Origin: Archivesica marissinica | Taxonomy: Eukaryota; Mollusca; Bivalvia; Venerida; Vesicomyidae | Direction: 5' to 3' | DNA length: 64,000 bases | NCBI GenBank assembly: GCA_014843695.1 | Contig: CM026394.1 | Location: 38,084,374-38,148,373 of the forward strand | Part shown: positions 22,753 to 57,765 of the stretch, in pieces | Numbering within the stretch: position 1 is the first letter of the stretch | Layout: each line of letters starts with the position of its first letter | Position numbers and translations under genes: made by a program | The notes under the pieces: generated by a model | Database searches by the model: none | What the model saw: only the letters and a program-made list of their open reading frames with translations | Told to the model about the DNA's origin: nothing

Positions 22753-22934
22753 ATTGAAAAATGCAAATATATGACGGGGTCATATACCCGGATGTGCTTG
22801 TGAATTCCAGATTCAAATTATGGCACCAAAATTGGAGATGTTTTCCACTGACTCGTATCTTCACTCTTCAGATGTGTTCTGCTGAAATAAGTCTTCACAT
22901 GTCCTCTGGTCAATGACGTATGTTATGATTCAGT

Positions 22935-23028
22935 CTATGTTCGTGGTATACACAATAGCGATGGTTCAGACACAACCGTATCTGGAGAAATCCCCTGGCC
23001 ATAGATTTTCAATAAACCATGATGCACT
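22935..23028 (-). CDS. CERKL: CERKL-like exon 13 (last)
   Basis: Acceptor ttgactttcag|a. The exon reads VHHGLLKIYGQG, matching the conserved C-terminal R-x-H-x-x-L-x-x-x-Y-G of CERKL, and ends after ...CIPRT with TAG. It joins exon 12 in phase 2. A 52-bp tandem array begins about 20 bases upstream of the acceptor. Confidence 0.9.
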
Positions 23029-26000
23029 CTGAAAGTCAAGTAGAAACTGATAAGAAACCCACACACAATCAACAGTTAGTGATGACATAGGTCATGAATG
23101 CCCTTAAGAAACACACACAATCAACAGTTAGTGATGACATAGCTCATGAATGCCCTTAGGAAACCCACACAATCAACAGTTAGTGATGACATAGGTCATG
23201 AATGCCCTTAAGAAACCCACACAATCAACAGTTAGTGATGACATAGGTCAAGAATGCCCTTAGGAAACCCACACAATCAACAGTTAGTGATGACATAGGT
23301 CAAGAATGCCCTTGCCCGAGTCCCTCACATTAAAGGTTTTTCATAATTTAATCTAGCTACATGCGTACATAGGTTTTCTGATATATGCTTCAAATCGAGT
23401 TTGATCCAGTTTCTGACAATAGATTCAGCGGAGTTGCTTGAAGCCTAACCTGGATTAACCGAATTTGGACAAAAATGATAATGGTCAATGAATGGATGCT
23501 TCAGGTATTTGATCAAATTCAAAACTTTAATATCAGAGAAGCTACTTTTGGCCTATGTTTTACCTTATGTTATATTTATGTTATATTTCGGGTTTTACGC
23601 CTGCATCAGCACCATTTTGGGCTATATCGCCGGCGGGCAGTTTTACCTAACAACACCTTTCCTGGGCAGGCTCCAGCGGTTAACCAGTACTTGGGTGCAC
23701 CAACCTCTGTAAGAAACTGCCAACTTTTTCATATAAATGAGTCACAGTCTGAGCGGGGGCTCGAACCCGTGACCATCAGTGATGATAGGTTACAGTGGTA
23801 TACAAGTCAGCGACCTTAACCACTCGACCACAGAGGCGGACACCTATGTTTTACCTAGAACATGATTTGTTTCTTTATTTACAACAAACGGAACATCTTT
23901 CCCTGTGAGCATTCAAAATAGCAATCATCTTAGTACCTGAAACTTGATACATTCCCGGACTTGACTACAGTCTGGCATATAGACAATGAGGTCGTCTTAC
24001 CTAAAATTTAATACGTCTTCAGTCTTGGTATTCTCACCTAACACTTAATAAGTCTTCGGTCTTGATCTCGTTGTCTATATTCCAGATAGATTTCAACTTA
24101 CCTAAAACTTAATACATCCTTGACCTCAGTGTCTATATTCCAGGTAGCTTTCAGCTTACCTAAAACTTAATACATCCTTGACCTCAGTGTCTATATTCCA
24201 GACTGATTTCAGCTTACCTAACACTTAATACATTCTCCATCTTGACCTCAGTGTCTATATTCCAGATAGCTTTCAGCTTACCTAAAACTTAATACATCCT
24301 TGACCTCAGTGTCTATATTCCAGATAGCTTTCAGCTTACCTACAACTTAATACATCCTTGACCTCAGTGTCTATATTCCAGGTAGCTTTCAGCTTACCTA
24401 AAACTTAATACATCCTCCATCTTGACCTCAGTGTCTATATTCCAGACTGATTTCAACTTACCTAAAACTTAATACATCCTCCATCTTGACCTCAGTGTCT
24501 ATATTCCAGACTGATTTCAACTTACCTAACACTTAATACATCCTCCATCTTGACCTCAGTGTCTATATTCCAGATAGCTTTCAGCTTACCTAAAACTTAA
24601 TACATCCTTGACCTCAGTGTCTATATTCCAGGTAGCTTTCAGCTTACCTAAAACTTAATACATCCTTGACCTCAGTGTCTATATTCCAGGTAGCTTTCAG
24701 CTTACCTACAACTTAATACATCCTTGACCTCAGTGTCTATATTCCAGATAGCTTTCAGCTTACCTACAACTTAATACATCCTTGACCTCAGTGTCTATAT
24801 TCCAGGTAGCTTTCAGCTTACCTAAAACTTAATACATCCTCCATCTTGACCTCAGTGTCTATATTCCAGACTGATTTCAACTTACCTAAAACTTAATACA
24901 TCCTTGACCTCAGTGTCTATATTCCAGACTGATTTCAACTTACCTAAAACTTAATACATCCTTGACCTCAGTGTCTATATTCCAGGTAGCTTTCAGCTTA
25001 CCTAAAACTTAATACATCCTTGACCTCAGTGTCTATATTACAGACTGATTTCAACTTACCTAAAACTTAATGCATCCTCCATCTTGACCTCAGTGTCTAT
25101 ATTCCAGATAGATTTCAACTTACCTAAAACTTAATACATCCTCCATCTTGACCTCAGTGTCTATATTCCAGATAGATTTCAACTTACCTAAAACTTAATA
25201 CATCCTTGACCTCAGTGTCTATATTCCAGACTGCAGTCAGCTTACCTAAAACTTAATACATCCTTGACGTCGTTGTCTATATTCCAGATAGATTTCATCT
25301 TACCTAAAACTTAATACATCCTCCATCTTGACCTCAGTGTCTATATTCCAGATAGCTTTCAGCTTACCTAAAACTTAATACATCCTTGACCTCAGTGTCT
25401 ATATTCCAGATAGCTTTCAGCTTACCTTAAAACTTAATACATCCTCCATCTTGACCTCAGTGTCTATATTCCAGATAGCTTTCAGCTTACCTAAAACTTA
25501 ATACATCCTTGACCTCAGTATCTATATTCCAGACTGATTTCATCTTACCTAAACTTAATACATCCTTGACCTCAGTGTCTATATTCCAGTCTGCAGTCAG
25601 CTTACCTAAAACTTAATATATCCTCCATTTTGATCTCGTTGTCTATATTCCAGACTGATTTCATCTTCATTTCTTCCTTTGCTTTCTTCTTCTCCTCCTT
25701 TTTCTTTGCATGTTTTCTGCGTTTTGCTCGGTCAATCTCGGCATATGTTGGTCGGTAAGCTGGACCGCACAGCCGTTGGTTTGCAGCTGATGCGGAACAC
25801 ACTGTGCGCACACCAACAGCATTTATAGACTGAAAGCAAAACCGAGGATCTGTGGAACGTGGTGCAAGCATAGTCTAATGTTGCTATAATGTGTATCTCA
25901 AACCATTTATGTTTTCATTCTGTCCCTATTTTATGTACAACAAATTTGAATGAATTAGAATAAGATAGATTAGCGTTGCTCAGATCGACACAATTTCTAG

Positions 26001-29000
26001 AAATTTTCCTGTAGTGTGAGCCCCGAAAATATTTGGCACAGGACAACAAGAAATTGGTAAAGCTAATCATTGACAGGTCATGTGTTCAGTTTATGTTGAA
26101 ATAAATATCTATCTTTTAACCGAATATTTCCGGTAACAGCGATAAGATCTCATAAAAGAATTTTAATGATTAGTATTAACTTACAACAATATCGCCTGAA
26201 TCTTCACTGTCGCTATTGACATCATCATCATCATCTTCGTCATCCTCTGAATCATCCAAGTTTGGCACTTCAATTGATGTATCTGTGTTTGTTCTTTTTA
26301 AAGATTTTGATGCAAACTGTTGAACACTTTGAGATTTTTTAAATGGCGGTTTAACTTTTGTTGTACATGTAGTTGGTGTTGATTGCACACTATTGTTCTT
26401 CTGATTAGAGGAAGCATCATCAACATCATCATCCGAATCACCTAAATCATTTATTTCTAACACCTCTATAGACCTTGATGTTGCATTGAGATTTTTTTGA
26501 CGACTGATTTCATAGTCGATTTCATTATAGTTTGAATCATTGTATTTAAAGCCTGTTGGTAGGCGGAGTCTAAATCTAACTTCCTTTACTCGTAATACTT
26601 CCACAAACGGAAAATCAAGCTGAAATAAAATGAAACGTTATAAACATTATCAACTTATATCTAATTTCAAGTGATCATATCTATTAAATTATGCAAATTA
26701 TATACATAAATTATATGCATAAATTATGCAAATTAACCTCACAATTTATTTTAATTATGCAAATTATATGCATGATAATGCATAATGCATAATATTATGA
26801 TACTAAGACAAGTGAGCAGGGGTTATATCCACGGCTATAGAATGTCTACACAAAGTTTCAAAACAATATGATACATATAACAACAAAGAAATAATCATTA
26901 TAGGGTATTTTACAACGCATTACGTTTTTATTATGAAAACCAAAAATATACATGTATTGACTAAAATTCCAGCTTACGCTCACTTTTGATGGGGTCGTTT
27001 TGGAGTAGTGGACTGTGTGCAAGAGATCAATGCATTATATTTCATGGTTTAGTTTATACAAATTTATTATAGCTCGATTGCGAAACAAGTTCTTTCAACT
27101 TATATTAATCACTCTCGAGACCTCATTCCTGATGGAATCCATCGCCATGAAGGAGAGAGAAGAGGCAATGTGGAATTTAAATGCCTTGCCTAAGGGCACA
27201 ATCGTAACGGCTCCAGCGGGGCTCGAACTCCGGACTTTTCGCACCTGAAGCGAACGCGCATCCACTGCGCTATTACGACTTCAATTTCATGGTTTCATAT
27301 ATGTATTTTGTATTGTATGCAATACTTGGGTGTGGCACAGCAGTCGCCATCACAGAAATAATCACGAAAGTGGGCAAGACAAAACTCACAATAAATTAAA
27401 CCTGACATACCTGGTTTTTTGAATTTGCTAATCTTTTCAACATTCTTACAAACTCCTTCCTCTCAGCATCTTTAACCAGTATGAGATCAATGACCCCATC
27501 ATTCAGATGGGTATATTTACTTGTTCCCCTAGGGGCCAGCTCAGACCTGCCTGGCAAGGTGAACAAGCCAATGTTGAGGAAATCCAATTTCCTAGATCGC
27601 CATGGAGTATCCTCGTGTTCAGCAAGATCTGGTAATATATAACGGTTTTCAGTTGTATTAACTTTTTAAATATAACAACCCTCAATTGTTCATTGCAACT
27701 TGAAGCAGTAGTATACGACACAGAGATTATTAGATGCCACGGTTCCCGCTGTCAGTCGCCAATGGCGCCAATTGCGACAAAAACAAATACTGGTGCTGTG
27801 AGTTTTGTGAATTGGCGCATGAAACGTTTTTCTCTTATTCATTTTTGGCACAACATGTTTTGTCAAATACATGGCTTCAAATATTTATTTGTGAACTATA
27901 TGGTTCTTAGTTGGCTCCAGGTTTTTCAAATTGGCTCCATTTTTTTTAATTGGCGACAGAAGTGGTGCGGACAAAACTTCAGACAGAGCTAACCCAGGAT
28001 GCATAAATACTGGAATGCTACAGAGATTGACTACACATAAAGATTGACTACACATAAAGATTGACTACATATAAAGATTGACTACACATAAAGATTGACT
28101 ACACATAAAGATTGACTACACATACAGATTGACTACACATAAAGATTGACTACACATAAAGTTTGACTACACATAAAGTTTGACTACACATAAAGATTGA
28201 CTACACATAAAGATTGACTACACATAAAGATTGACTACACATAAAGATTGACTACACATAAAGATTGACTACACATAACGATTGACTACACATAAAGATT
28301 GACTACACATAAAGATTGACTACACATAAAGTTTGACTACACATAAAGATTGACTACACATAAAGATTGACTACACATAAAGTTTGACTACACATAAAGA
28401 TTGACTACACATAAAGATTGACTGACTACACATAAAGATTGACTACACATAAAGATTGACTGACTACACATAAAGATTGACTACACATACAGATTGACTG
28501 ACTACACATAAAGATTGACTACACATAAAGATTGACTGACTACACATAAAGATTGACTACACATAAAGATTGACTACACATAAAGATTGACTCTACACAT
28601 AAAGATTGACTACACATAAAGATTGACTACACATAAAGATTGACTACACATAAAGATTGACTACACATAAAGATTGGTTAACACAGAAGTTAGAAGCAGA
28701 GTAGGGGAATATAGAATTGGCATCCGTTCGTAACATTTCAAGTTAGATCCCTTGAAGGATTTTCACGACACTTGGTTCATATGTGCGAAACCCATAATCC
28801 ACTTGAGTCAGTTCAAGTATAGATTGTTAGATGCATAAATACTTGAAGTCTCGGAGGGATTGACTACACAAAAGATTGGTTAGCATTTGAAGCAGAGTAG
28901 GGGAATATCAGGGTTAGCTTTCTACCGGGGAAAAAAGTATGTCTTCCCTTCTGTTAGAAGAAACATGGGAAAAAAAACTCAAAAAAGGGAAGCAACTCCT

Positions 29001-32000
29001 TTCTTCCCAGAAGAAACTGGGAATAAAGATGTGTTATACGTTGTTGCATCACTGTCAGCAACTTTACAGTATAACATTTACAGAAGTAAGAGAATAATAT
29101 TTACATTAAAATCAGCACAACGGTCTCACAATTATTAATCATTATATGTACATTTTATGTATATTTTGTACATTTTATGTATATTTAATGTATATTTATG
29201 TATATTTATGTACATTTTATGTATATTTATGTACATTTTGTACATTTTATGTATATTTATGTACATTTATGTACATTTTATGTATATTTATGAACATTTT
29301 ATGTATATTTATGAACATTTTATGTATATTTATGAACATTTTATGTATATTTATGTACATTTTATGTATATTTTGTACATTTTATGTATATTTATGTACA
29401 TTTTATGTATATTTTGTACATTTTATGTATATTTATGTACATTTTATGTATATTTATGTACATTTTATGTATATTTTGTACATTTTATGTATATTTATGT
29501 ACATTTTATGTATATTTTGTACATTTTATGTATATTTATGTACATTTTATGTATATTTATGTACATTTTATGTATATTTATGTACATTTTATGTACATTT
29601 TATGTATATTTTGTACATTTTATGTATATTTATGTACATTTTATGTACATTTTATGTATATTTTGTACATTTTATGTATATTTTATGTATATATATATAT
29701 ATATTCCTAAATAATTTGACAAAAAGCAGGTTTCTTCCATTTCCGTATTGGAAATAACCGGGAAAAATTCTACCAACCCTGAGGAATATAGAATTGGCCT
29801 CCGTCCTGACTCCATAACATTTCAAGTTAGATTCATATCTCCTAAACCGCTTGATGGATTTTCACGACACTTTGTTCATATGTTCACCGCATCAAGATGA
29901 AGTACTCAATCCGAGTCTGTTCAAGGTTGAAGTAGCATTCCCGGTCAAACAGCAATTGTTCGCAACAGCGAGACGACATACATAACCCAGAAATCACAGT
30001 TCAAACAATGGTGGTTCAAAGTCAAGTCACGCTTGCAGTTCAAAGTCATCTCGATTTCATGTCCTGGGGCATCCGAGTATCACGACATAGCCGAGTTCCA
30101 AGGCAAGTTAGAATGCAGGTTAATCATTTCGTGTATGGAAGCTGATAATGTTAATTTGTAATCTGCTACTTACTGACTAATGTATCGCTGTTGTTTGACA
30201 CATCTAATGGATCAAATGCCTGCACGAGATCTTGTGTGACGCCGTTATCATCAACAACTTCTTCATTCCAGCAGATATCACACCTGTAACAGACGGAGAC
30301 TTGCAATATCTATACCAGTGATGGTCACCGCCGCATCCCCCCACCTTAGACATGGAACCAATCCCCCATTCCAGCAGATATCACACCTGTAACAGACGGA
30401 GACTTGCAATATCTATACCAGTGATGGTCACCGCCTCATCCCCCCCACCTTAGACATGGAACCAATCCCCCATTCCAGCAGATATCACACCTGTAACAGA
30501 CGGAGACTTGCAATATCTATACCAGTGATGGTCACCGCCTCATCCCCCCCACCTTAGACATGGAACCAATCCCCCATTCCAGCAGATATCACACCTGTAA
30601 CAGACGGAGACTTGCAATATCTATACCAGTGATGGTCACCGCTGCATCCCCCCCCCTTAGACAGAACCAATCCCCCATTCCAGCAGATATCACACCTGTA
30701 ACAGACGGAGACTTGCAATATCTATACCAGTGATGGTCACCGCCGCTCCCCCCCCCCCACCTTAGACATGGAACCAATCCCCCGTTGAATTGGAAATACA
30801 TATTCACAATTTGTAAACTCAGATATTCACATAATAGAATCATCAGGCACAGTTCCTCTACAAAATTTAGGCTGTTTGATTAGCGCAGTGATTAGCGGCG
30901 CAGTGATTAGCGGCGCAGTGATTAGCGGCGCAGTGATTAGCGGCGCAGTGATTAGCGGCGCAGTGATTAGCGGCGCAGTTATTAGCGGCGCAGTGATTAG
31001 CGGCGCAGTGATTAGCAGCGCAGTGATTAGCGCAGTGATTAGCGGCACAGTGATTAGCGGCACAGTGATTAGTGGTGCAGTGATTAGCGGCGCAGTGATT
31101 AGCACACTCGCTTCTCACCAAAGGGTCGCCAACTAGTATATTCTGGATCATTCCATAAGTCGAGGGTACTTTGTGGACTTTTGATATTCGTTTCGACATG
31201 GAATATTTTCTCTCACTTTTGAATGAAACTTGGCTCAATTTTTTATATCTGGTTGGCTGTTTGATTAGCGCAGTGGTTAGCACGCTCGCTTCTCACCAAT
31301 GCAACCCGGGTTCGATGCTCGGACCGGTAAGTATGTGAGATGGTACGGTGGTCGCCAGATCGGACAGGTGGGTTTTCTCTGGGTACTCCGGTTTCATCCC
31401 ATACGAATGACCACATTTACACTTTCATCTGCGCCAACGAGAGTGATTAATACAAGTTGTTAAAGCTTGCTTCGCAATCGTTGTAAAATAAATAAAGTTT
31501 AAAAAGAATAATATATAAAGAGAATAGTATCTCCAAAGGGAGACCACAGTTCACTAAAGACTAAATATATGGATGTAAAACCATCACAGTGTTTGAATCA
31601 TACGTACCCTCTAAAACATGGTAGGAATTTGTTGTGGTTCGGCAAGCTGTCTGCAGGGATGTATTCCACATCACACTTGTATGGCCTGAAGTCAATTACA
31701 TACCGATACGTTATCTAGTTTATACAAACTTATTTCAGCCCAATTGAGACTGACCTCTTCAGACTAATCACCCTCATTCCTGATGGAATCCATTGTCATG
31801 AATGAGAGAGAAGAGGCAATGCGAATTAAGATTTTAAAAATTGTGTTATTTCTATATTTTTCGACAGTCTATAATGATCTAATTTTAAAATTTCTTGGTT
31901 TGTTTGTTCGGGTTTCATGCCTGTATCAGCACCATTTTGGGCTATATCGCCGGCGGGCAGTTTACCTAACAACACCTTTCTTGAGCAGGCTCCAGCAGTT

Positions 32001-44000: not shown

Positions 44001-47000
44001 TTAAGGGTTGTCATCCATGGTGTCAGCCTTGTCAGTTAAGGGTTGTCATCCATGGTGTCAGCCTTGTCAGTTAAGGGTTGTCAGCCTTGTCAGTTAAGGG
44101 TTGTCATCCATGGTGTCAGCCTTGTCAGTTAAGGGTTGTCAGCCTTGTCAGTTAAGGGTTGTCATCCATGGTGTCAGCCGTGTCAGTTAAGGGCTGTCCT
44201 CCATGGTGTCAGCCTTGTCAGTTAGGGGTTGTCCTCCATGATGTCAGCCTTGTCAGTTAAGGGTTGTCCTCTGTGATGGCAGCCTTGTCAGTTAGATGTT
44301 GTCCTCCATGGTGTCAGCCTTGTCAGTTAGGGGTTGTCCTCAATGATATCAGCCTTGTCAGTTAAGGGTTGTCCTCCATGGTGTCAGCCTTGTCAGTTAG
44401 GGGTTGTCCTCCATGGTGTCAGCCTTGTCAGCTAAGGGTTGTCCTCCATGATGTCAGCCTTGTCAGTTAAGGGTTGTCATCCATGGTGTCAGCCTTGTCA
44501 GTTATATGTTGTCCTCCATGGTGTCAGCCTCGTCAGTTAAGGGTTGTCCTCGATGGTGTCAGCCTTGTCAGTTATATGTTGTCCTCCATGGTGTCAGCCT
44601 TGTCAGCTAAGGGTTGTCATCCATGGTGTCAGCCTAGTCAGTTAAGGGTTGCCATCCATGGTGTCAGCCTTGTCAGTTAGGGGTTGTCCTCAATGGTGTC
44701 AGCCTTGTCAGTTAAGGGTTGTCATCCATGGTGTCAGCCTTGTCAGTTAGGGGTTGTCCTCAATGGTGTCAGCCTTGTCAGTTAAGGGTTGTCATCCATG
44801 GTGTCAGCCTTGTCAGTTAGGGGTTGTCCTCAATGGTGTCAGCCTTGTCAGTTAGGGGTTGTCATCCATGGTGTCAGCCTTGTCAGTTAGGGGTTGTCCT
44901 CCATGATGTCAGCCTTGTCAGCAAAGGGTTGTCCTCCATGGTGTCAGCCTTGTCAGTTAGATGTTGTCCTCCATGATGTCAGCCTTGTCAGATAGGGGTT
45001 GTCCTCCATGATGTCAGCCTTGTCAGTTAGGGGTTGTCCTCCATGATGTCAGCCTTGTCAGTTAAGGGTTGTCATCCATGGTGTCAGCCTTGTCAGTTAA
45101 GGGTTGTCATCCATGGTGTCAGCCTTGTCAGTTAGGGGTTGTCCTCAATGGTGTCAGCCTTGTCAGTTAAGGGTTGTCATCCATGGTGTCAGCCTTGTCA
45201 GTTAGGGGTTGTCCTCAATGGTGTCAGCCTTGTCAGTTAGGGGTTGTCATCCATGGTTTCAGCCTTGTCAGTTAGGGGTTGTCCTCAATGGTGTCAGCCT
45301 TGTCAGTTAAGGGTTGTCATCCATGGTGTCAGCCTTGTTAGTTAGGGGTTGTCCTCCATGATGTCAGCCTTGTCAGTTAGGGGTTGTCCTCCATGATATC
45401 AGCCTTGTCAGCTAAGGGTTGTCATCCATGGTGTCAGCCTTGTCAGTTAAGGGTTGTCCTCCATGGTGTCAGCCTTGTCAGTTAAGGGTTGTCATCCATG
45501 GTGTCAGCCTTGTCAGTTAAGGGTTGTCCTCCATGGTGTCAGCCTTGTCAGCTAAGGGTTGTCATCCATGGTGTCAGCCTTGTCAGTTAGGGGTTGTCCT
45601 CAATGGTGTCAGCCTTGTCAGTTAAGGGTTGTCATCCATTGTGTCAGCCTTGTCAGTTAGGGGTTGTCCTCAATGGTGTCAGCCTTGTCAGTTAGGGGTT
45701 GTCATCCATGGTGTCAGCCTTGTCAGTTAGGGGTTGTCCTCCATGATGTCAGCCTTGTCAGCAAAGGGTTGTCCTCCATGGTGTCAGCCTTGTCAGTTAG
45801 ATGTTGTCCTCCATGATGTCAGCCTTGTCAGATAGGGGTTGTCCTCCATGATGTCAGCCTTGTCAGTTAGGGGTTGTCCTCCATGATGTCAGCCTTGTCA
45901 GTTAAGGGTTGTCATCCATGGTGTCAGCCTTGTCAGTTAAGGGTTGTCATCCATGGTGTCAGCCTTGTCAGTTAGGGGTTGTCCTCAATGGTGTCAGCCT
46001 TGTCAGTTAAGGGTTGTCATCCATGGTGTCAGCCTTGTCAGTTAAGGGTTGTCATCCATGGTGTCAGCCTTGTCAGTTAGGGGTTGTCCTCAATGGTGTC
46101 AGCCTTGTCAGTTAGGGGTTGTCATCCATGGTGTCAGCCTTGTCAGTTAAGGGTTGTCATCCATGGTGTCAGCCTTGTTAGTTAGGGGTTGTCCTCCATG
46201 ATGTCAGCCTTGTCAGTTAGGGGTTGTCCTCCATGATATCAGCCTTGTCAGTTAAGGGTTGTCATCCATGGTGTCAGCCTTGTCAGTTAAGGGTTGTCAT
46301 CCATGGTGTCAGCCTTGTCAGTTAAGGGTTGTCATCCATGGTGTCAGCCTTGTCAGTTAAGGGTTGTCCGCCATGGTGTCAGCCTTGTCAGCTATGGGTT
46401 GTCATCCATGGTGTCAGCCTTGTCAGTTAGGGGTTGTCCTCAATGGTGTCAGCCTTGTCAGTTAGATATTGTCATCCATGGTGTCAGCCTTGTCAGTTAG
46501 GGGTTGTCCTCAATGGTGTCAGCCTTGTCAGTTAGATGTTGTCATCCATGGTGTCAGCCTTGTCAGTTAGGGGTTGTCCTCCATGATGTCAGTTAGGGGT
46601 TGTCCTCGATGGTGTCAGCCTCGTAAGCAATGGGTTTTCCTCCATGGTGTAAGCGAGGGTGGTCAGTTTGAACTATGGTGATGTTATCGTTAGGCAAGAA
46701 ACACAAATTCACATTGTCTCTTCTCGCTCACTCATGGCGATGGATTCCATCCGTATTGAAGTCTCGAGAGTGAGTAATATAAGTTCTTTCGTAATCGAGC
46801 TCAAATCCGGATCATGTTTCACAATCAAGCTAAAATAAATTTGTACCCACTATCAAATTCCTAGCACTTGTTTGGGGACCAGCTTTGGTACTGAGCGACT
46901 CAATGTTTATACCTTCCAAGTAGATTTGTATTTTCCTCATATACATGGAGCAGAGAGCTTCACTTGGGTGCTCAAACAAGATCAATCTTTCCGACAAAGC

Positions 47001-50000
47001 ATTTGGACCAAACGCGTCAACCACGTGAAGAGAAAACCCTGAAAAATAGAACAAGGTTCAGTCAAACTTGTCTTAACATCCCAATTGAGATTCAAATGTA
47101 AGGCGGCAACTTATATTCAACAGAAAATAGTTTTATCAATTCCTGTTAACCCTTTCAACACCACAGACCTCTAAATAGGCTTACAAAAAGTGTAGATCCA
47201 GATGAGCCGGCTCGTGACGAGCCGTCTCATCAGGATCTGCACTTTTTGCCAGTGATATGACTATTTTTAGACATAATTACCCATTTTGATAAATGAACTT
47301 GTCCAAATGTGATTTTCTGATTCATTTATTGGTTTATGAATATCATGGACCAGTCCATGTGAGTTACTTGGTGTTGAATGGGTTAATTAGTATAAAATAG
47401 ATCAATTTTATAACGATTGCGAAACAAGCTTTCACAACTTATATTAATCACTTTCGTTGGCACGGATGAAAGCGTAAATGATGTCATTTGAGTGTGAGGA
47501 AACTGGAGTACCCGGAGACAACCACCAGGGTTCATTCTAGGTCAGAATTTTTGGGAGAAGTGAGAGTGCGTAATCGCATCCTTAAATGGTATTATTTAAT
47601 AAATTTCAACAAAATATGCTTAAAATTCACACACAGTATGACCAGTAAATACAACATTTAATAGGGGTGCTCTATAATGTGTATCTTACTTAAAAAAAAT
47701 TCAAAATAATTATTTTTTTAGGGAGAAGTGGGCTCCCAGAGGGCGAAGTCAGTGTCCCTAGGGCGACTATTTCGCCTACATTGCCCTCTAAAATGATCCC
47801 TGAAACCGCCTGTACGATTTGGCGACCACATTACTATTTTGCATACTTCCTGGTCCATGGATCAAACGCGGGTTGCATTAGTGGGAAGAGAGAGTGCTAA
47901 CCACTGCACTAGTTGGACAGCCATTCCTGTTAATTATCCCTTTCCTTCTTGGAGATTTAGGTTAATATATATATTTATATCTCCATACAAACAAATCAAT
48001 TGCAAACCCCGCTCTCGACATGTTATTACCGACAGGTATCACGAGAAACAATTGCCGAATCAAAGCTCCCGTTGCGTTTCATTGGTTTCATTTCCACTAA
48101 TCAAATTAGTCTTATTCACACTTTTAAGTGTCAATTTATTAACCCTTTCCTTCATAGAGATTTAGATTTAAACGACAGAGATTTAGATTTAAACGACAGC
48201 CATTTAGCTATCATGCAGTGGATAAGTAGTCGCCATATCTATTCCACCTACATAGATATTACTGGGACTACATGAGATTCTGGCCTTTATTATGAACATT
48301 GGTTTGGCTACTACATTGTCAATGTACGTTGTATTGGTAATGGCGTCAAGAGGTGCTTCTATGAGGGAAAGGGTTTATGAACATTGGTTTGGCTACTACA
48401 TTGTCAATGAATGTCGTATTGGTAATGGCGTCAAGAGGTGCTTCTATGAGGGAAAGGGTTTATGAACATTGGTTTGGCTACTACATTGTCAATGTACGTT
48501 GTATTGGTAATGGCGTCAAGAGGTGCTTCTATGAGGGAAAGAGTTATGATCATTGGCTTGGCTACTACATTGTCATTGTATGTTGTATTGGTAATGGCGT
48601 CAAGAGGTGCTTCTATGAGGGAAAGGGTTTATGAACATTGGCTTGGCTACTGCATTGTCAATGTACGTTGTATTGGTAATGACGTCAAGAGGTGCTTCTA
48701 TGAGGTAAAGGGTTATGAACATTGGTTTGGCTACTACATTGTCAATGTACGTTGTATTGGTAATGGCGTCAAGAGGTGCTTCTATGAGGGAAAGGGTTAT
48801 GCAGCAAGCCAACGGAATCATAGGAAGTAACTGCTTAAAAGAGGGCACAATTAATGTATAATAAAACAACATATTGGGACTCTGGAAAGTGGCAGCTTAA
48901 TACAGGTTGGCTGACTTGACTGTTCAATTTATTTAAAGTCGCCACCGCGTGTACCTTACCTACATACATGCTGGTTATACCCATGACCTGGTAATGCACA
49001 ATACCAGCATGTACCTTACCTACACACAAGCCTTCCTCTTCAGAACCATGCGCAGATTTCTTCCGTTTAGTTTTAACTGCAAACACATCCTTTAACATCA
49101 CCGTATTTCTATCTTCACCCTTACTCTTCCCTTTAAACAAACGCTTCTTTTTGCCTGAAATAAAGTAAGGCGAGAAAGTATTAAACACTTACCCCTTCCA
49201 ACACAACAGACTTCTAAATAGCTTACAATGTGTATATCCAGCTAGTGACGAGCCGTCTCATCAGGATCTGCACTTTTTGCCAGTAATATTATTATTTTTA
49301 GATTAAATTAACCATGTGGCTTCCGTCATAGAATATCGGATTTGGAATCTGGGGTTCGATAGCCACAGCATCTATAAGCAAGGTACATCACACACATTGC
49401 AGAGTACTGGTTAGTCGCTTACGTCAGCTAAACTGGCACAGAAAGATTTATCAATAGGTCACCGCAAGGGGTTTGACATGAGAAATGGAACATACATAGG
49501 CTTGGCAGTGCTCACGGAAAATATTTTTAACAGACAGGCACAGGGCTTGTCCCCTTTGATAATGGACAGGCCCCATATGCATGTTATATCAATATGGGTG
49601 ACTTTCTAGAATACAGTCCTGGTCTGTGAACTTATATCATCTTCCTGATGAAAGTACTGAGTGGCACAAGCTTTGTGTGAGCTGCTTGCCTGGTGTGTCC
49701 TATTGGATCTAACCGGAACTGATCCATACCTGTAGTAAACACATTCTTGTCTGCCAGAATAGGAAATCGCTCACAGGAGATGCAAAAAAACGTTAACGAT
49801 AGAGGCAGTAACGAAATATAATACAATTAGCAGGAATCTTGGGACAATTGGCAGTAATCTTGACATTATACTTAGGGTTAAATTTGATCTTCAATTGAAG
49901 AGTATTCTTTTCAGCTCTAGTTTACTTGTTTGTTTTTATACGTTTATTTATCGTCGCTACCGGTTGCCCATATGAGCGATGCCTCCTGAAGAGATTAGTT

Positions 50001-52051
50001 ATTTTAGATTTTTGGAGGATAGTGCAATGATACAGAGAGACCCATTCCAGAATCTCCTCTGGTTCTTTTACGTGCACGGTGTAAAGCACCGACACGAGAC
50101 CTCGGTTTAACGTCCCATCTGAAAGACTGTTAATTTTATTATGGTCAGACGGGGGATCGAACCTGCGATCCCTGGATTACCAGTCCAGTTTACCACTCTA
50201 GTTTACTGCCACCTGTTTTGTGGGATTACTGCCTACTGAAGGTATATCCCCGATACAGCCAATCAGCAAGTTGTATGCTAATGTATCGGGGGTTTCTCAG
50301 CATGAGCAATTAGTGAAGTCATTATTTATTTAATCGCTTTATTGGGGGCTATAATTTAGGTGTTGCAGTAGCTAATGTGCTGTAAATAGATGACAAAAGA
50401 GGCATAATTGATTGATTTAGTCACCAGGCCCGAGAATGTTTACGATTGTTGTCTCCGAGATCGGAAATCACGCGTCATTAAATTTTCTACGCCCCCCGAG
50501 ATTTATTTTAGACACAGGCCCGCATGCATGTCAGATTTAAAGAGAGACAGGCCCGACTTGGATTTTGAAGGGCCCCGGGCATCGGGCTGTGGGCCCCGGG
50601 CTGTGTTACTGCTAGGCTGTCCGATTAATGCAGTGGTTAGAATGCTCGATTCTCACATATGCAACCCGGATCTGATCCTCGGACCGGGAAGTATGCGAGG
50701 TGGTCTACTCCGGGTACTGTACTCTGATTTCCTCCCACACCAAAAACCACATTAGACGCATGTACATATATTAGTTTATACAGATTTATTTTAGCTTGAT
50801 CTTACAACTTATTTTAATCACTCTCGAGACCTCATTCCTGATGGAATCCATCGCCACGAGGGAAAGAGGAGACAATGTGGAACTTAAATGCCTTGTCTAA
50901 GGGCACAATCGTAACTGCTCCAACTCCGGACCTTTCGCAATGTGAAGCGAACGCGCATCCACTGCGCTACCACGACTTTCACTGTACATGTATACACTTT
51001 CATCCACTTGTTTTACAATCATTGCAAAATAAATAAAGATTATACTTTTTACATACTATAGATACCAAATAAGCCATGGATTTCAGATACTGTCATGTGG
51101 CGTCCGTGGTAGAACGTAGGATTTGGAATCGAACAGTCCCGGGTTCGATACTCGGTATATAGTGCCATTGAAGAAGGCACCTCACACATTGCTTAGTACT
51201 GTTCAACTATTTAGGCTGGCTAAGCCTGTCCAGGAATACATGTCTACGTCCCCGCAATGGGTTTTACATTAATGCCGTGGCGGATTAATGGGAGGGCTGA
51301 AGCCTGGGGACCCCCGATATTTAGGGGCCCCCAAATTAGTATTTTAAATCTGTAATTAACTGAATAAAATTTAACGAACATTTTTAAAATGACTACATAA
51401 ATAGATATAACTTAGAAGGTAGTGAGCTTTCCAACGATGTACAACTGTAATATTTTGTGCTTAGTAGATTGCAGCAATAACGTATAGACTTTTTTAAGTG
51501 CACAGTTCCCTCAAGTCTAATAGTGACGCAATATGCGTGGACAGGTGAAATTACTTCTTACCAACCAATGCGATAGTTGAGCCGTAATTTAGGCCAAGCG
51601 GGTGTAATGCGAGAAAGGTGTATACAATAGAATTTTCTTGTTTGTTTACATTAGTATTTATCTTGATGAAAGGGCCCCTGTTTGAGCTACAGCCAAGGGG
51701 CCCCATGCAATCATAATCCACCCCTGCATTAATGGAACATACATACACGACACACCATCATCATCAATTTAGTGATTGCCTAACTCTGGGAGTCTGTCAC
51801 GTGCACACTGGTGACACTCGTAATGTATTACAATATCCTTAAGAATTATATTTACCTGAAGGGTTCACATTTGTCCACGTGATGAGACCCCTTGCCAAGG
51901 ACAACGTGACATCGTAGCCGTCTCCCTTGGTGTGGAATATGTCCTTGCAGTCTTCCTCGTCGGCAAATAAACGTTCCTCCTCAACAAAATTAGGGCACTG
52001 GAGGGTAGGGTTCCCATCTTCGTCAAAAATATATTCATCCAGATCGTTCAT
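22935..52051 (-). CDS. CERKL: Ceramide kinase-like protein (CERKL type), complete 13-exon gene
   Basis: Thirteen exons (listed separately) give a 736-residue protein. All junctions are GT-AG and in phase. The ATG is preceded by an in-frame TGA. Residues about 40-145 form the N-terminal PH-like region of this family. The diacylglycerol-kinase-type catalytic core follows, with GGDGT at 223-227 and IPIGSTND about 50 residues later. The loop that reads GGKG in true ceramide kinases is HAGVKNG here, as in CERKL proteins. The C-terminal half carries APRG, a KNQ..FPFVEV segment, and the closing RVHHGLLKIYG. The protein is longer than vertebrate CERKL (about 530-560) because of an acidic Ser/Asn-rich insert (487-631) and a Lys/Glu-rich stretch (exon 12). 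CERKL proteins have no proven ceramide kinase activity, so the substrate is open. Five splice junctions have been copied into tandem arrays. Confidence 0.9.
23048..23325. repeat. Tandem array, 52 bp, about 5 copies, in intron 12
   Basis: Unit contains 'acaatcaacagttagtgatg' and 'gaatgccctta'. It stops just short of the exon 13 acceptor, so the acceptor itself is not copied. Confidence 0.95.
23566..23842 (-). repeat. SINE A, 14-bp TSD, in intron 12
   Basis: Complete minus-strand copy with an AT tail. The duplication cctatgttttacct lies at 23552-23565 and 23843-23856. Confidence 0.9.
23930..25605 (-). repeat. Tandem array of the exon 12 end plus donor, about 27 copies
   Basis: Units of 64 bp, or 58 bp with a 6-base deletion, read on the minus strand as the last 60 or so bases of exon 12 (coding SVWNIDxEVKMEDVLSF) followed by the donor ag|gtaag. 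I count 27 copies of the motif agGTAAG, the real donor included. The unit length equals the exon end from 'aagatgaaatcag' to 'tttaggt'. Each donor contains an in-frame TAA. Confidence 0.95.
25606..25829 (-). CDS. CERKL: CERKL-like exon 12
   Basis: Acceptor ttttgctttcag|tct in phase 0, donor tttag|gtaagc in phase 2. It encodes SINAVGVRTVCSAS..., a Lys/Glu-rich segment (RAKRRKHAKKKEEKKKAKEE) and the conserved WNID..IKMED. Its last 60 or so bases are the source of the array at 23930-25605. Past the donor the frame stops at once (LSFR, TAA). Confidence 0.9.
26185..26619 (-). CDS. CERKL: CERKL-like exon 11, with acidic insert
   Basis: Acceptor tttatttcag|ctt and donor att gtt|gtaagt, phase 0 at both ends (145 codons). 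It starts LDFPFVEVLRVKEVRFRL, which matches the conserved FPFVE..xVEEV segment. It continues with a low-complexity Ser/Asn/Asp-rich region (DSDDDVDD, SEDDEDDDDDVNSDSEDS) absent from vertebrate CERKL. That region is probably disordered. Confidence 0.9.
26620..27048. other. AT-rich part of CERKL intron 10
   Basis: A simple AT-rich stretch with recurring 'atgcaaattatatgcat' runs near 26690-26790. No exon. Confidence 0.5.
27061..27283 (-). repeat. SINE C, full length, 12-bp TSD, in intron 10
   Basis: Complete copy on the minus strand. The duplication atttcatggttt lies at 27049-27060 and 27284-27295. Confidence 0.9.
27411..27628 (-). CDS. CERKL: CERKL-like exon 10
   Basis: Acceptor tatattaccag|at and donor aaccag|gtatgt. 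It enters in phase 1 and leaves in phase 0. Encodes PWRSRKLDFLNIGLFTLP, then SELAPRGTSKYTHLNDG and the KEFVRMLKRLANSKNQ helix. These parallel the APRGLAP..LNNG and L.RYASVKNQ stretches of vertebrate CERKL. Confidence 0.92.
27629..28019. other. CERKL intron 9, nothing recognised
   Basis: No repeat or exon that I can support. Confidence 0.4.
28020..28680. repeat. Tandem array, 17 bp, about 38 copies, in intron 9
   Basis: Unit 'acataaagattgactac'. Occasional units carry an extra 'tgac'. Confidence 0.95.
28681..29139. other. CERKL intron 9, nothing recognised
   Basis: A stray 'attgactacac' unit near 28860 echoes the neighbouring array. An 83-codon open frame has no motif. Confidence 0.35.
29140..29705. 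repeat. AT-rich tandem array (tgtacat/tgtatat units), in intron 9
   Basis: Units such as 'atgtacattttatgtatatt' of varying length fill about 560 bases. They give spurious frames rich in Tyr, Phe, Cys and Ile. Confidence 0.9.
29706..30173. other. CERKL intron 9, nothing recognised
   Basis: Segments near 29790 repeat part of 28700-28790 ('atagaattggc', 'catttcaagttagat'), so the two arrays lie within a larger diverged duplication. Confidence 0.45.
30174..30283 (-). CDS. CERKL: CERKL-like exon 9
   Basis: Acceptor ctgttacag|g and donor gtca|gtaagt, phases 2 and 1. It encodes CDICWNEEVVDDNGVTQDLV and then DPLDVSN, a variable linker. Its acceptor and first 20 or so bases are copied in the array at 30284-30785. 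Confidence 0.85.
30284..30785 (-). repeat. Tandem array of the exon 9 acceptor, about 105 bp, 4 extra copies
   Basis: On the minus strand each unit contains ctccgtctgttacag|gtgtgatatctgctgg, the real acceptor with the first bases of exon 9. About 80 bases of intron including a C/G-rich run follow. Four copies lie upstream of the real site. Confidence 0.93.
30869..31127 (+). repeat. SINE D head with 15-bp minisatellite in its A-box
   Basis: It starts as SINE D (ggctgtttgattagcgcagtg) and ends in the D sequence that normally follows (cactcgcttctcaccaa). In between, the A-box part 'gcagtgattagcggc' is repeated about 14 times. An intact D copy 120 bases away (31250) carries it once. Confidence 0.9.
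31250..31503 (+). repeat. SINE D, full length
   Basis: Head 'ggctgtttgattagcgcagtg', B-box gggttcgatgc, body and 'aaataaagttt' tail. Lies in CERKL intron 8. Confidence 0.88.
31608..31685 (-). CDS. CERKL: CERKL-like exon 8
   Basis: Acceptor ttgacttcag|g and donor agagg|gtacgt, phase 2 at both ends. It encodes PYKCDVEYIPADSLPNHNKF, matching the C.I.FLP strand that follows the catalytic region. Confidence 0.88.
31715..31832 (-). repeat. SINE C fragment
   Basis: Tail and part of the body on the minus strand. The head is missing. Confidence 0.75.
31905..32197 (-). repeat. SINE A with internal duplication
   Basis: Minus-strand copy. The B-box neighbourhood is present twice ('gagacacagcttgagcgggg' and 'gagacatggtttgagcagag'). 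Confidence 0.82.
32235..32390 (-). repeat. SINE C, diverged, with duplicated body segment
   Basis: 'cattcctgatggaatccac' occurs twice about 60 bases apart. The head is missing. Confidence 0.6.
32391..32797. other. CERKL intron 7, nothing recognised
   Basis: AT-rich, no feature. Confidence 0.4.
32798..33053 (-). CDS. CERKL: CERKL-like exon 7
   Basis: Acceptor tctctttcaacag|gg and donor ctacg|gtaaga, phases 1 and 2. It encodes STNDTARSVMGTDDVTSA, the nucleotide/substrate-binding loop after IPIG. It continues with ILGVKIPVDVCSAYRED, CQYGFAGNVL and PAFLKALTKAKLR. All parallel vertebrate CERKL (STN, DVCTFS, FGFGG, VKALAKLKA). The acceptor and the first 45 or so bases are copied at 33054-33490. 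Confidence 0.93.
33054..33490 (-). repeat. Tandem array of the exon 7 acceptor, about 72 bp, 5-6 extra copies
   Basis: On the minus strand each unit has a pyrimidine tract (gtttctctctgaacag), the AG, and a copy of the exon start coding STNDTARSVLGTDN. The copies lie upstream of the real acceptor. The farthest (about 33480) is degraded and the nearest reads aacaag instead of aacag. Confidence 0.94.
33555..33729 (+). repeat. SINE B, 5'-truncated
   Basis: Body and tail only. The 3' tail is interrupted by MITE G. Confidence 0.75.
33730..33988 (+). mobile_element. MITE G
   Basis: Left end taggggttttttctgga and right end tctagaataaaccctaa are inverted. It sits in the 'gataaat' tail of a SINE B. 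A second copy is at 61409-61682. Confidence 0.7.
34091..34233 (-). CDS. CERKL: CERKL-like exon 6 (GGDGT motif)
   Basis: Acceptor tatactgcag|t and donor attg|gtatgt, phases 2 and 1. It encodes VVAMGGDGTVSKVTDGLLMA, then QKAGFTPTTAALTLGIIPI. GGDGT is the ATP-binding hallmark of diacylglycerol, sphingosine and ceramide kinases; vertebrate CERKL has GGDGS. A functional nucleotide site is therefore plausible. Confidence 0.94.
34310..34535 (+). repeat. SINE D, full length
   Basis: Head 'ggctgtccgattagcgcgctcg' (slightly shortened A-box), body and tail. Lies in intron 5. Confidence 0.85.
34912..34975 (-). CDS. CERKL: CERKL-like exon 5
   Basis: Acceptor tttgtttacag|ag and donor gactg|gtcagt, phases 1 and 2. 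The 64-base exon encodes EVQHNEHIKQVMVHLNLEDF, the short helix before the catalytic strand. Confidence 0.88.
34990..35115. repeat. Tandem array, 14-15 bp, about 7 copies
   Basis: 'ccgaaacatcctagt' units, starting about 35 bases upstream of the exon 5 acceptor in transcription terms. Confidence 0.85.
35417..35711 (-). repeat. SINE B fragment fused to MITE H fragment
   Basis: Minus-strand SINE B (35417-35562) breaks off after 'agtctcttctggtta' and continues directly as a truncated MITE H ('gaatcacaagaagtggctgc' to 'aggtttgactgta'). Neither broken end shows a duplication. Confidence 0.75.
35715..35800 (+). repeat. SINE D, 3' tail
   Basis: 'gctttcatcctcgccga' to the 'aaataaatatag' tail. Confidence 0.65.
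35860..37110. repeat. Tandem array, 109 bp, about 9 copies, interrupted by MITE E
   Basis: Unit contains 'gctctagctaacaacagaag', 'gcagatattctagtaatcta' and 'aaacatgatgtattattaa'. Central units have internal deletions. A further partial unit is at 37345-37440. Confidence 0.93.
36000..36232 (+). mobile_element. MITE E, TTAA-flanked, inside the 109-bp array
   Basis: TTAA at 35996-35999 and 36233-36236. The ends ctctttcaacacca and ggtgttgaaaggg are inverted, with a central palindrome around 'gatgagacggctcg'. Neighbouring array units show the empty site (tattattaatgctc). Confidence 0.88.
37111..38149. other. CERKL intron 4: partial 109-bp unit and a short repeat
   Basis: A partial unit of the 109-bp array at 37345-37440, and short 'acaggggtacaggagc' repeats at 37965-38060. 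The rest is unassigned. Confidence 0.5.
38150..38460 (-). repeat. Tandem array of the exon 4 donor, about 23 bp, 13 extra copies
   Basis: On the minus strand each unit reads gactgtgtcg|gtgagtg ttagga: the last ten bases of exon 4, a donor (gtgagt, gtaagt or weaker gtgtgt) and a few intron bases. The copies lie downstream of the real donor. An in-frame TAG follows each donor. Confidence 0.95.
38461..38592 (-). CDS. CERKL: CERKL-like exon 4
   Basis: Acceptor attttccacag|ag and donor gtgtcg|gtaagt, phase 1 at both ends. It encodes EINGRPKSVKLFLQTHAGVK, then NGNSTYKNKVVPLFQAAGVH. It parallels FPNRPKSLKILLNPQSHK..., the first strand and loop of the lipid-kinase fold in CERKL. Confidence 0.92.
38655..41005 (+). 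mobile_element. MITE E with a 33-bp minisatellite of about 65 copies grown inside
   Basis: TTAA at 38651-38654 and 41006-41009. The ends cccattcaacccc and ggggttgaaaggg match MITE E. The segment 'ttcaaccccaagtaactgac...tggtgca', single in the copy at 61684, is repeated from about 38660 to 40805, and the normal MITE interior follows. Long frames here (up to 718 codons on three frames) result from the 33-bp period. Confidence 0.95.
41184..41594. mobile_element. MITE H interrupted by a SINE C
   Basis: Left end tacagtcaagcc and right end caggtttgactata. The interior is split by the SINE C at 41307-41544. Confidence 0.8.
41307..41544 (-). repeat. SINE C nested in MITE H, 12-bp TSD
   Basis: The duplication tacaagttgact lies at 41295-41306 and 41545-41556, both within MITE H sequence. 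Confidence 0.88.
41644..41956. mobile_element. MITE I, longer copy
   Basis: Ends as at 8073-8254. The interior holds about 120 extra bases ('agctactagcttcc' to 'taaactaaact') absent from the first copy. Confidence 0.85.
42125..46670. repeat. Tandem array, 35 bp, about 130 copies, with higher-order structure
   Basis: Unit 'gtcagccttgtcagttaagg' plus 'gttgtcatccatggt', with 23-bp short units interspersed. The rare variant 'gcaaagggttgtcctccatg' recurs at 44931 and 45771, exactly 840 bp (24 units) apart, and neighbouring units correspond. It fills most of CERKL intron 3. Confidence 0.95.
46710..46845 (+). repeat. SINE C, 3' half
   Basis: Body and tail on the + strand, with a short tail duplication ('aatcgagctcaaat' and 'aatcaagctaaaat'). 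Confidence 0.75.
46913..47038 (-). CDS. CERKL: CERKL-like exon 3
   Basis: Acceptor ctatttttcag|gg and donor gaag|gtataa, phase 1 at both ends. It encodes FSLHVVDAFGPNALSERLIL, then EALCSMYMRKIQIYLE. This is the second half of the PH-like region, with the amphipathic closing helix. Confidence 0.9.
47150..47382 (-). mobile_element. MITE E, TTAA-flanked
   Basis: TTAA at 47146-47149 and 47383-47386. A 233-bp copy in reverse orientation, in intron 2, without internal amplification. Confidence 0.88.
47405..47930 (-). repeat. SINE D interrupted by MITE F
   Basis: Tail and body (47405-47525) and head (47803-47930) are separated by MITE F at the 'aaacccac' position of the D consensus. Confidence 0.85.
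47526..47802 (-). mobile_element. MITE F (hAT-like) nested in SINE D
   Basis: Ends cagggttcattctagg and taaaatgatccctg. Flanks acaaccac and aaaccgcc both derive from the SINE D bases aaacccac, so an aged 8-bp duplication is likely. Confidence 0.8.
47931..48292. other. CERKL intron 2, nothing recognised
   Basis: A short duplication 'agatttagatttaaacgac' near 48160-48195. No exon. Confidence 0.4.
48293..48805. repeat. Tandem array, 84-85 bp, about 6 copies
   Basis: Unit contains 'gaacattggtttggctac' and 'ggcgtcaagaggtgcttc'. Lies in CERKL intron 2. Confidence 0.93.
48812..48925. mobile_element. MITE H fragment
   Basis: 'aacaacatattgggactctg' to 'gactgt' matches one end of MITE H. The other end is missing. 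Confidence 0.65.
48950..49019 (-). repeat. Duplicated donor of exon 2 (one extra copy, 60 bp away)
   Basis: The motif gtag|gtaaggtac of the exon 2 donor recurs exactly 60 bases downstream, with several flanking bases on each side alike ('tgtatgtaggtaaggtac'). It looks like a first-step tandem duplication. Confidence 0.75.
49020..49154 (-). CDS. CERKL: CERKL-like exon 2
   Basis: Acceptor actttatttcag|gc and donor tgtgtag|gtaagg, phase 1 at both ends. It encodes KKKRLFKGKSKGEDRNTVML, then KDVFAVKTKRKKSAHGSEEE. It matches LKDIFSVKLKRR of vertebrate CERKL, the start of the PH-like region. Confidence 0.9.
49188..49312 (-). mobile_element. MITE E fragment
   Basis: Part of one end and the central palindrome ('gacgagccgtctcatcagga'). 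The rest is missing. Lies just upstream of the exon 2 acceptor in transcription terms. Confidence 0.65.
49313..49500 (+). repeat. SINE E
   Basis: tRNA-like head ('gtggcttccgtcatagaa', 'ggatttggaatc', B-box-like ggggttcgatag) and a body with 'caccgcaaggggtttgacat'. The same family is at 51095. Confidence 0.7.
49501..49914. other. CERKL intron 1, nothing recognised
   Basis: No exon or repeat that I can support. Confidence 0.4.
49927..50195 (-). repeat. SINE B, slightly truncated head, 12-bp TSD
   Basis: The duplication ctctagtttact lies at 49915-49926 and 50196-50207. The last bases of the head (A-box side) are missing. Confidence 0.88.
50208..50614. other. CERKL intron 1, nothing recognised
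   Basis: A GC-rich stretch (50490-50600, 'ggccccgggcatcgggctgt') stands out from the AT-rich surroundings. No element identified. Confidence 0.4.
50615..50760 (+). repeat. SINE D, 3'-truncated
   Basis: Head and first part of the body only. Confidence 0.75.
50770..50990 (-). repeat. SINE C
   Basis: Near full-length minus-strand copy with a small deletion in the B-box region. Confidence 0.82.
51095..51745 (+). repeat. SINE E interrupted by a hAT-type MITE
   Basis: Head 'gtggcgtccgtggtagaacg', B-box gggttcgatac, body 'ccccgcaatgggttttacat'. It continues after the insertion as 'gaacatacat'. Confidence 0.8.
51275..51726. mobile_element. hAT-type MITE, 8-bp TSD
   Basis: The duplication cattaatg lies at 51267-51274 and 51727-51734. 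The ends ccgtggcggatta and taatccacccctg are inverted and resemble the CAGGGGCGGAT ends of hAT elements. 452 bp with no transposase. Confidence 0.9.
51856..52051 (-). CDS. CERKL: CERKL-like exon 1 (start codon)
   Basis: The start is ATG at 52051-52049 (MNDLDEYIFDEDGNP). An in-frame TGA 18 bases upstream rules out an extension. It includes DIFHTKGDGYDVTLSLARGL, then ITWTNVNPSG, matching the GIFEIGKKSCDVVLTERALR-W region of vertebrate CERKL. Donor cttcag|gtaaat, phase 1. Acidic N-terminus, no signal peptide. Confidence 0.9.
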
Positions 52052-56366: not shown

Positions 56367-57662
56367 CTAATATCTCATGTGTCCGCCGTATTGCCCAATG
56401 CACGTCAATATCTGCCGTCGCATGCTGTCGACGTAACGTTGTATGTAATGTGCCGGTAGGTTGTTCCATTCAGCCTGCAATGCTGCTGAAAGGTTATGTA
56501 CCGTGTTGATTACATAATGTGTTCTAACACGACGTCCTAACTCGTCCCAAATATGCTCGATGGGATTTAAGTCGGGACTAATTGCCGGCCAGTCTAAAAC
56601 GTTCACGTTATTATTCGCCAAAGAGCATCGAGTAAGTGCTGCTGTATGGGGTCGGGCGTTGTCCTGCATACGTGTGACGTTAGTAAGTGCTGCTGCATGG
56701 GGCCGGGCATTGTCATGCATACGTGTGACGTTAGTAAGTGCTGCTGTATGGGGTCGGGCGTTGTCCTGCATAAGTGTGATGTTATGTCCATTACGCTGAA
56801 TAAACGGAAGCACTTCTGCTTGAAGAACATTATTGACGTAGGTCTGGGCATTAATGTTTCCGTGAATAACGATTAGACGAGTCTTTTGATCATTCATTAT
56901 TCCGCCCCAGACTAAAACTGAACCTCCCCCAAAACGGTCTCTTTCAATGACGCACGCATCAGCGTAACGCTCTCCCCGACGGCGATAAACTCGTTCACGT
57001 CCGTCGGCATGGCTCAAATTAAATCGCGATTCATCCGAAAATAACACTGATCTCCATTCAGCACGTCGGAAACGCCGGTGACGTCGGCACCAATCACGTC
57101 TCGCAGCCCTACGACGCCTTGTTAAAATTTGGCCAAAGTAGGGTCTGTACGGACGAATCGGGTCATTATTTTGCCGAAGTCGGTTCCGAACTGCCTGTGC
57201 ACTGATTCCGTGCCGTCGTGCTGTTGCTGATGCTGACAGACGACGGTTACGTAAATGTTGAACCGTAATGTACCGATCATCCACCGCAGTCGTTACACGT
57301 GGCCGACCTCCTCGGGGACGGTCACGAACATTTCCCATGGTCTGGAAACGTGTACGCAAGCGGTTAATTGTTGCCCTTGTGCAGTCGAACAGCCGGGATA
57401 TATCGGCTACTGATGCGCCAGCATTCAACATCCCGATCGCCTGATTTCGTTGGTCGTTATTTAGTCGTGGCAGTATGCTTCGATTGAATCTGATGTGAAC
57501 TTTTTGTATTGTTCGTAACTGCTGGTCAATCAGTGCAGTCAGATACCAATTCCAGATATCAACTATCGCTGCACGAGATGCACGTGTAAAACAAGATAAT
57601 CGCTCCTTGCGGTTTAGCGCTTGGCTGATTTTTGATAAAACTACGGTTAACAGGTACTCCAA
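56367..57662 (-). pseudogene. Tc1/mariner (DD34E) transposase, damaged
   Basis: The frame is open for 431 codons. A helix-turn-helix region (PRLNNDQRNQAIGMLNAGAS) and a second one with GRPR lie in the N-terminal half. The catalytic triad is Asp in LFSDESRFNL, Asp in DNARPHTA, and Glu in SPDLNPIEHIW. The segment with the second Asp is triplicated (17 residues per copy). Only the last copy keeps 34 residues to the Glu; the first gives 68. No ATG lies before the helix-turn-helix, and the first Met is at frame codon 78. Activity is therefore unlikely. It is read on the minus strand. Confidence 0.88.
56640..56790 (-). repeat. In-frame 51-bp triplication in the transposase
   Basis: Three copies of a 51-base unit coding M(Q/H)DNARPH(T/A)AALTNVTR. 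The copies differ by only a few bases, so the event is recent. Confidence 0.93.
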
Positions 57663-57765
57663 ATAAATGCATATACATTATGTATTGCTTATTTTGGAGA
57701 ATTATTAATATTAATGAAATTATTCAAAAATTAAAAGTGGATACTTTCTTTTTTGGCTCAGTATA

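Follow-up and report, generated by a model that had tools for sequence, protein, structure and literature searches.

Splice-site-spanning minisatellites in a CERKL-like gene of a vesicomyid clam and elsewhere in its genome

Tandem repetition of exon-intron borders has been described in amphioxus under the name of mirages, in the genes for Adh3 and troponin C and in the globins BflGb6 and BflGb9 (PMC3087553; the troponin C and Adh cases are cited in PMC3902484). According to the excerpted account, mirages are minisatellite-like tandem copies of either boundary of an intron, with units of 10-160 bp, in which many copies, though not all, carry the AG or GT dinucleotide and the boundary copies stand outside the homogenisation of the others (PMC3087553). 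In the lancelet gene PGBD5, exons 3 and 4 are overlapped, splice sites included, by two distinct imperfect arrays, of 60 and 108 bp, with 2-7 copies, as excerpts of PMC3902484 describe. Tandem dual-specific splice sites are also found in the polyubiquitin gene UBC, whose repeat units each contain an AGGT splice site (PMC10809524, in excerpt). Here we describe a CERKL-like gene of the clam Archivesica marissinica with arrays that are, in all likelihood, splice-site-spanning minisatellites of the amphioxus kind. Compared with the two exons concerned in PGBD5, it has four arrays and one dispersed copy. Unlike the amphioxus cases, this mollusc gene has a row with as many as 28 copies of a donor and near copies of five of its junctions, and the rate of such structures was estimated elsewhere in its genome; the amphioxus cases, in contrast, come with RT-PCR and haplotype data and with somatic instability reported for Adh3 (in excerpt). 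An earlier note on this DNA knew of no described case of one gene with so many amplified splice sites, which was wrong in kind, given the Adh, troponin C, globin and PGBD5 mirages in the excerpts of PMC3087553 and PMC3902484. A single gene with five such junctions does not appear in those excerpted amphioxus accounts, and no mollusc precedent for splice-site mirages was seen among the open-licence papers listed by our literature searches.

The window, that is, the whole stretch of 64,000 nucleotides analysed, belongs to an assembly of 1.54 Gb. The CERKL-like gene occupies positions 22934..52051 of its minus strand and encodes DAGK_cat and CERK_C domains in an intact open frame of 736 aa. Its 13 coding exons, placed by homology and splice signals, are exon 1 (52051-51856), exon 2 (49154-49020), exon 3 (47038-46913), exon 4 (38592-38461), exon 5 (34975-34912), exon 6 (34233-34091), exon 7 (33053-32798), exon 8 (31685-31608), exon 9 (30283-30174), exon 10 (27628-27411), exon 11 (26619-26185), exon 12 (25829-25606) and exon 13 (23028-22934), all on the minus strand. 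The nearest named relative of the protein is that of Ruditapes philippinarum, at 75% identity with a query that lacked exon 5 and contained two wrong joins. Relatives numbered 39, and in the 13 aligned the five junctions discussed below (the donors of exons 2, 4 and 12 and the acceptors of exons 7 and 9) are free of gaps, so the exon borders appear well placed. The window also contains, on the plus strand at 801-1406, a partial rhodopsin-type GPCR gene (7tm_1) surrounded by DNA with almost no arrays and, on the minus strand at 56370-57677, an open frame of 436 aa for a DDE transposase (DDE_3, HTH_23) with an in-frame 51-bp repeat in three copies.

For every one of the gene's 24 junctions, a 24-nt segment placed on the junction was compared with the junction's own intron. 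Near copies were found at exactly five of them, with scores out of 24 of 21 for the exon 2 donor, 23 for the exon 4 donor, 22 for the exon 7 acceptor, and 24 for both the exon 9 acceptor and the exon 12 donor. The other 19 junctions had no near copy in their own introns (top score 16/24), and the best of 242 comparisons between junction segments and other introns reached 18/24. The affected introns are 1.0 to 3.5 kb long.

The five junctions had been proposed to be the edge units of tandem repeats, and this holds for exons 4, 7, 9 and 12. The exon 2 donor (feature at 48948..49031, minus strand; GT at 49019) is matched, 60 nt downstream (GT at 48959), by a single diverged and dispersed copy some 24 nt long, with unrelated DNA in between; it forms no array and is missing from the Tandem Repeats Finder (TRF) list. 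The remaining features also lie on the minus strand. The exon 4 donor array (38146..38471) has a 23-bp unit with 11 exonic and 12 intronic nt and presents 14 donors. The exon 7 acceptor array (33005..33485) has a 74-bp unit with up to 49 exonic and 25 intronic nt, and contains the real acceptor at 33053, five decoys and a partial unit. The exon 9 acceptor array (30264..30786) consists of a 104-bp unit with 20 exonic nt, with four decoys and the real acceptor at 30283. The exon 12 donor array (24061..25667) has a 58/64-bp unit and 26 aligned donors, the first being the real one (GT at 25605), followed by a decayed tail (23945..24060) with two more donors (GT at 24037 and 24000). The copy numbers given beforehand thus stand for exon 4 (14) and exon 9 (five), and for exon 7 as six plus the partial unit, whereas the 27 proposed for exon 12 became 26 plus the two in the tail. 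The unit alignments bear out the earlier note in that the repeat of each of the four arrays joins some exon sequence to some intron sequence across the splice site. The arrays affect both junction types (two donors, two acceptors), and in each the genuine site occupies the edge unit, the only copy that the intact coding sequence needs, as the gap-free alignment with the 13 relatives indicates.

When the five units were searched against the window at E<=1e-3, all 53 hits fell inside the unit's own array. Since no similarity was detectable between one unit and another, or between the units and the rest of the window, the five duplications appear to be independent events, as previously suggested. 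The edge copies of the exon 12 and exon 7 arrays are 0.84 identical to their decoys, while the decoys are 0.94-0.95 identical among themselves, which is expected if the coding copy escapes homogenisation; the same comparison revealed no diverged edge copy in the exon 4 and exon 9 arrays. The exon 12 array unit reads WNIDTEVKMEDVLSFR, and the exon itself reads WNIDNEIKMEDILSFR. The array may preserve an older form of the exon, because its V is the residue of the relatives P0001, P0002 and P0004. Two other arrays of the gene end just short of a junction: one at 23051-23313 ends 22 nt before exon 13, and one at 38657-40803, with 65 copies of 33 bp and 99% matches, ends 64 nt before exon 4.

Tandem duplication of AGGT-containing segments has been published as a route to new introns for such repeats (PMC3087553, in excerpt), and the arrays could be remnants of that process, as had been raised for this gene. 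Both ends of the intron should then lie in the array, but each junction array touches one intron end only: at the opposite ends of introns 4, 6, 8 and 12, the nearest TRF array is 69, 123, 504 and 22 nt away, respectively, and the one close to the far end of intron 12 consists of an unrelated repeat. UBC-type repeats and duplication-born introns differ from the clam arrays in this very respect, since there both intron ends are in the repeat. In UBC the unit is coding, a multiple of three in length, and introns run from repeat to repeat (PMC10809524, in excerpt), neither of which applies in the clam, where the exon 4 and exon 7 units lack AG|GT and the arrays do not reach the other end of the intron. 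Intron creation is therefore the least credible of the explanations considered here. A mis-stacking of repeats at exon edges during assembly is also extremely unlikely: arrays are hard to assemble and the copy numbers may be wrong, but units within one array differ from each other, and the same type of structure occurs on many contigs.

Tandem arrays occupy 13,114 of the 29,118 bp of the CERKL-like gene (45%). We defined a junction-spanning array as a TRF array that lies over a junction and takes in 8 or more exonic nt, and calculated expectations under a simple seed model in which each array descends from a single founding unit placed at random among the positions that leave the protein unharmed. 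Four of the 22 TRF arrays span a junction, compared with 0.98 expected under random seeds (P=0.013); when arrays are placed without being reduced to a single unit, the expectation falls to 0.54 (P=0.0016). These P values are optimistic because the gene was chosen for looking unusual. Since it had been picked for the feature itself, other genes of the genome were sampled.

The controls comprise 104 exons and 197 junctions from lipid kinases, myosins and chaperonins of the same genome, a set of few families and conserved genes whose junctions were placed by homology and GT/AG. Junction-spanning arrays numbered three in the lipid kinases (24 exons, 45 junctions; 1.99 expected, P=0.32), two in a first set of myosins (24 exons, 45 junctions; 1.46 expected, P=0.43), eight in a second set (36 exons, 68 junctions; 6.11 expected, P=0.23) and two in the chaperonins (20 exons, 39 junctions; 2.43 expected, P=0.79). 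All sets but one were above expectation, none of them significantly, and the pooled count was 15 arrays for 197 junctions (7.6%), with 11.98 expected (P=0.23). The sampled genes thus often have splice-site-spanning arrays, in roughly the number that their repeat content predicts. Arrays make up 48% of 100 kb around the lipid-kinase genes, and 21% and 34% of shorter stretches around myosin exons and 18% around chaperonin exons. Two donors of one DGK gene border arrays with some 36 and 54 copies, and an acceptor of a sphingosine-kinase-like gene borders an array with some 94 copies (TRF copy numbers in each case).

Several features of the sampling define these figures. The DAGK_cat search returned seven exon matches, two of them already with junction arrays; all seven were used, and the 20-kb stretches around five were taken after arrays had been seen at two. 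For the myosins, 65 of 265 candidates were scored, 73 matches were listed and 60 exons were used; the matches omitted were identical exons (L029, L030, L032, L035 and L036), L046, which duplicates L047, three matches located in L048 and L049, and another four. For the chaperonins, 20 of 43 matches were used. Flanking DNA amounted to at least 1500 nt in the lipid-kinase set as in the first set of myosins, to 700 nt in the second set of myosins and to 350 nt in the chaperonins. The 197 junctions exclude 11 exon edges that could not be placed (three lipid-kinase, seven myosin including that of L081, and one chaperonin); the L081 array is counted among the 15 with its donor outside the 197, and including that donor would make the ratio 15/198. 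The arrays L059 and L076, both among the 15, have only 8 exonic nt, which equals the threshold, and three control junctions are one base off (two in lipid kinases, one in the second myosin set).

One candidate, tandem myosin exon fragments in L048 (G000:C5:100288800-100290300), was rejected as an array. It consists of two adjacent similar exons of a myosin heavy chain gene, each with its own splice sites, which are probably mutually exclusive. An identical myosin exon occurs in L046, on the small contig C763, and L047, on C18, possibly as a second haplotype, which would permit a comparison of array lengths. Around 40.0-40.2 Mb of G000:C5, several myosin gene copies share identical exons. At the exon at position 15585 of L012+L013, two copies of a 29-bp unit repeat the acceptor and include next to no exon sequence.

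The earlier note had proposed that splice-site sequence is itself prone to duplication, in which case AGGT and its flanks would gather arrays at exon borders. The CERKL-like gene, with four arrays for the 0.98 expected (P=0.013), agrees with this, as does the slight surplus in the controls, but that surplus is not significant. The motif itself also fits poorly: AG|GT is present at only three of the five sites (the exon 2 donor, the exon 12 donor and the exon 9 acceptor), the exon 4 donor being TCG|GT and the exon 7 acceptor AG|GG. Arrays lie at acceptors as well as donors, in two of the four arrays of the CERKL-like gene and five of the 15 control arrays, the other 10 being at donors. The control rate, the two junction types and the motif speak together against the proposal, and we regard a duplication-prone splice-site sequence as unlikely. 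The CERKL-like gene nevertheless exceeds the control rate, with near copies at 5/24 junctions compared with 14/197 in the controls (Fisher P=0.04) and arrays at 4/24 compared with 15/197 (P=0.13), which counts against purely random duplication. The gene sits in the upper tail, as a heavily affected example.

The consequences of using a decoy were predicted for 50 copies (27 at exon 12, 13 at exon 4, five at exon 7, four at exon 9 and one at exon 2), and 49 of them would lead to an early stop. The exon 2 copy is the only decoy that keeps the frame, and its use is predicted to add 20 aa. By 5' splice-site weights, 25 of 26 decoy donors of exon 12 score at least as high as the real donor, compared with one of 13 in exon 4, and in 10 donor arrays pooled, 138 of 182 decoys score at or above the real site. 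AG or GT is retained in 301 of 336 decoys over 17 arrays. The test of constraint on these 17 arrays left out L091 and L104, which were found last. It detected no constraint on the decoy dinucleotides, which had a mean rank of 0.48 among the unit's other dinucleotides (Wilcoxon P=0.71). Intact decoys amount to 26/26 in the exon 12 array, 1/7 in L081, 0/1 in L059, 1/3 in L026, 3/6 in L051 and 6/13 in L077. The donor core of the exon 12 array has no changes in 25 decoys, but changes overall are too few for a comparison with the rest of the unit to be informative. In the donor array of L081, GT has been lost in six of seven copies, and the unit's other dinucleotides are kept at 0.80 on average. 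Taken together, the decoys look neutral, and selection in a single array remains compatible with these data.

These results bear on whether rows of decoys are tolerated or are useful for tuning splicing, the two options left by the earlier note. Useful rows would tune splicing or send transcripts to decay, with array length acting as a dial. The high scores of most of the pooled donor decoys suit such a role, and the early stops predicted for nearly all decoys checked mean that leakage would reduce output. Early stops are, however, the expected outcome of most random intron read-through, and the decoy dinucleotides change like the others of their units. The rows are, moreover, largely broken in L081, L059, L026, L051 and L077, the exon 4 decoys rarely match their real donor, and unrelated genes carry the structures with roughly the frequency that chance predicts. 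A tuning function is accordingly very unlikely, and the alternative of tolerance gains support.

The most satisfactory explanation, which we consider highly probable, is random tandem duplication in a minisatellite-rich genome, with tolerance of those copies that spare the exon-edge site. A short tandem duplication arising at random would at times straddle an exon border, and the exon-edge copy would still yield the same mRNA, which would make such an event nearly neutral. A duplication wholly inside an exon would alter the protein, so that arrays would survive in introns and at intron edges. Extra copies would expand and homogenise inside the intron, and in exons 12 and 7 the coding edge copy would have been left behind. 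With minisatellites forming a fifth to half of the sampled gene DNA, borders in other genes would likewise be straddled with a frequency close to that of chance. The decoys are probably neutral, and the spliceosome probably chooses the exon-edge site by exon definition, pairing the nearest sites across the exon. Nearest sites across the exon are favoured when introns are large (PMC9225289, in excerpt), and RT-PCR suggests that regular splicing is undisturbed by the amphioxus mirages (PMC3087553, in excerpt); use of the edge site in the clam would agree with both.

With random duplication as their cause, mirages would pass from a curiosity of a few amphioxus genes to a structure common in the sampled mollusc genes, with a plain origin. 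They carry a warning for annotation, as gene finders may set exon ends in the wrong copy. We tentatively propose that in this clam about one junction in 13, or about one per gene with an ordinary number of introns, lies at the edge of a minisatellite that repeats its splice site, often in tens of copies and often at equal strength. Should this hold and the mRNAs be normal, the spliceosome must select by position, taking the site nearest the exon, and not by strength. The genome also offers a natural test of site choice among dozens of equal sites, at many junctions and with 2 to 90 copies. Unstable array lengths would provide thousands of natural alleles with which exon definition could be measured and, perhaps, a leakage into decay that depends on repeat number.
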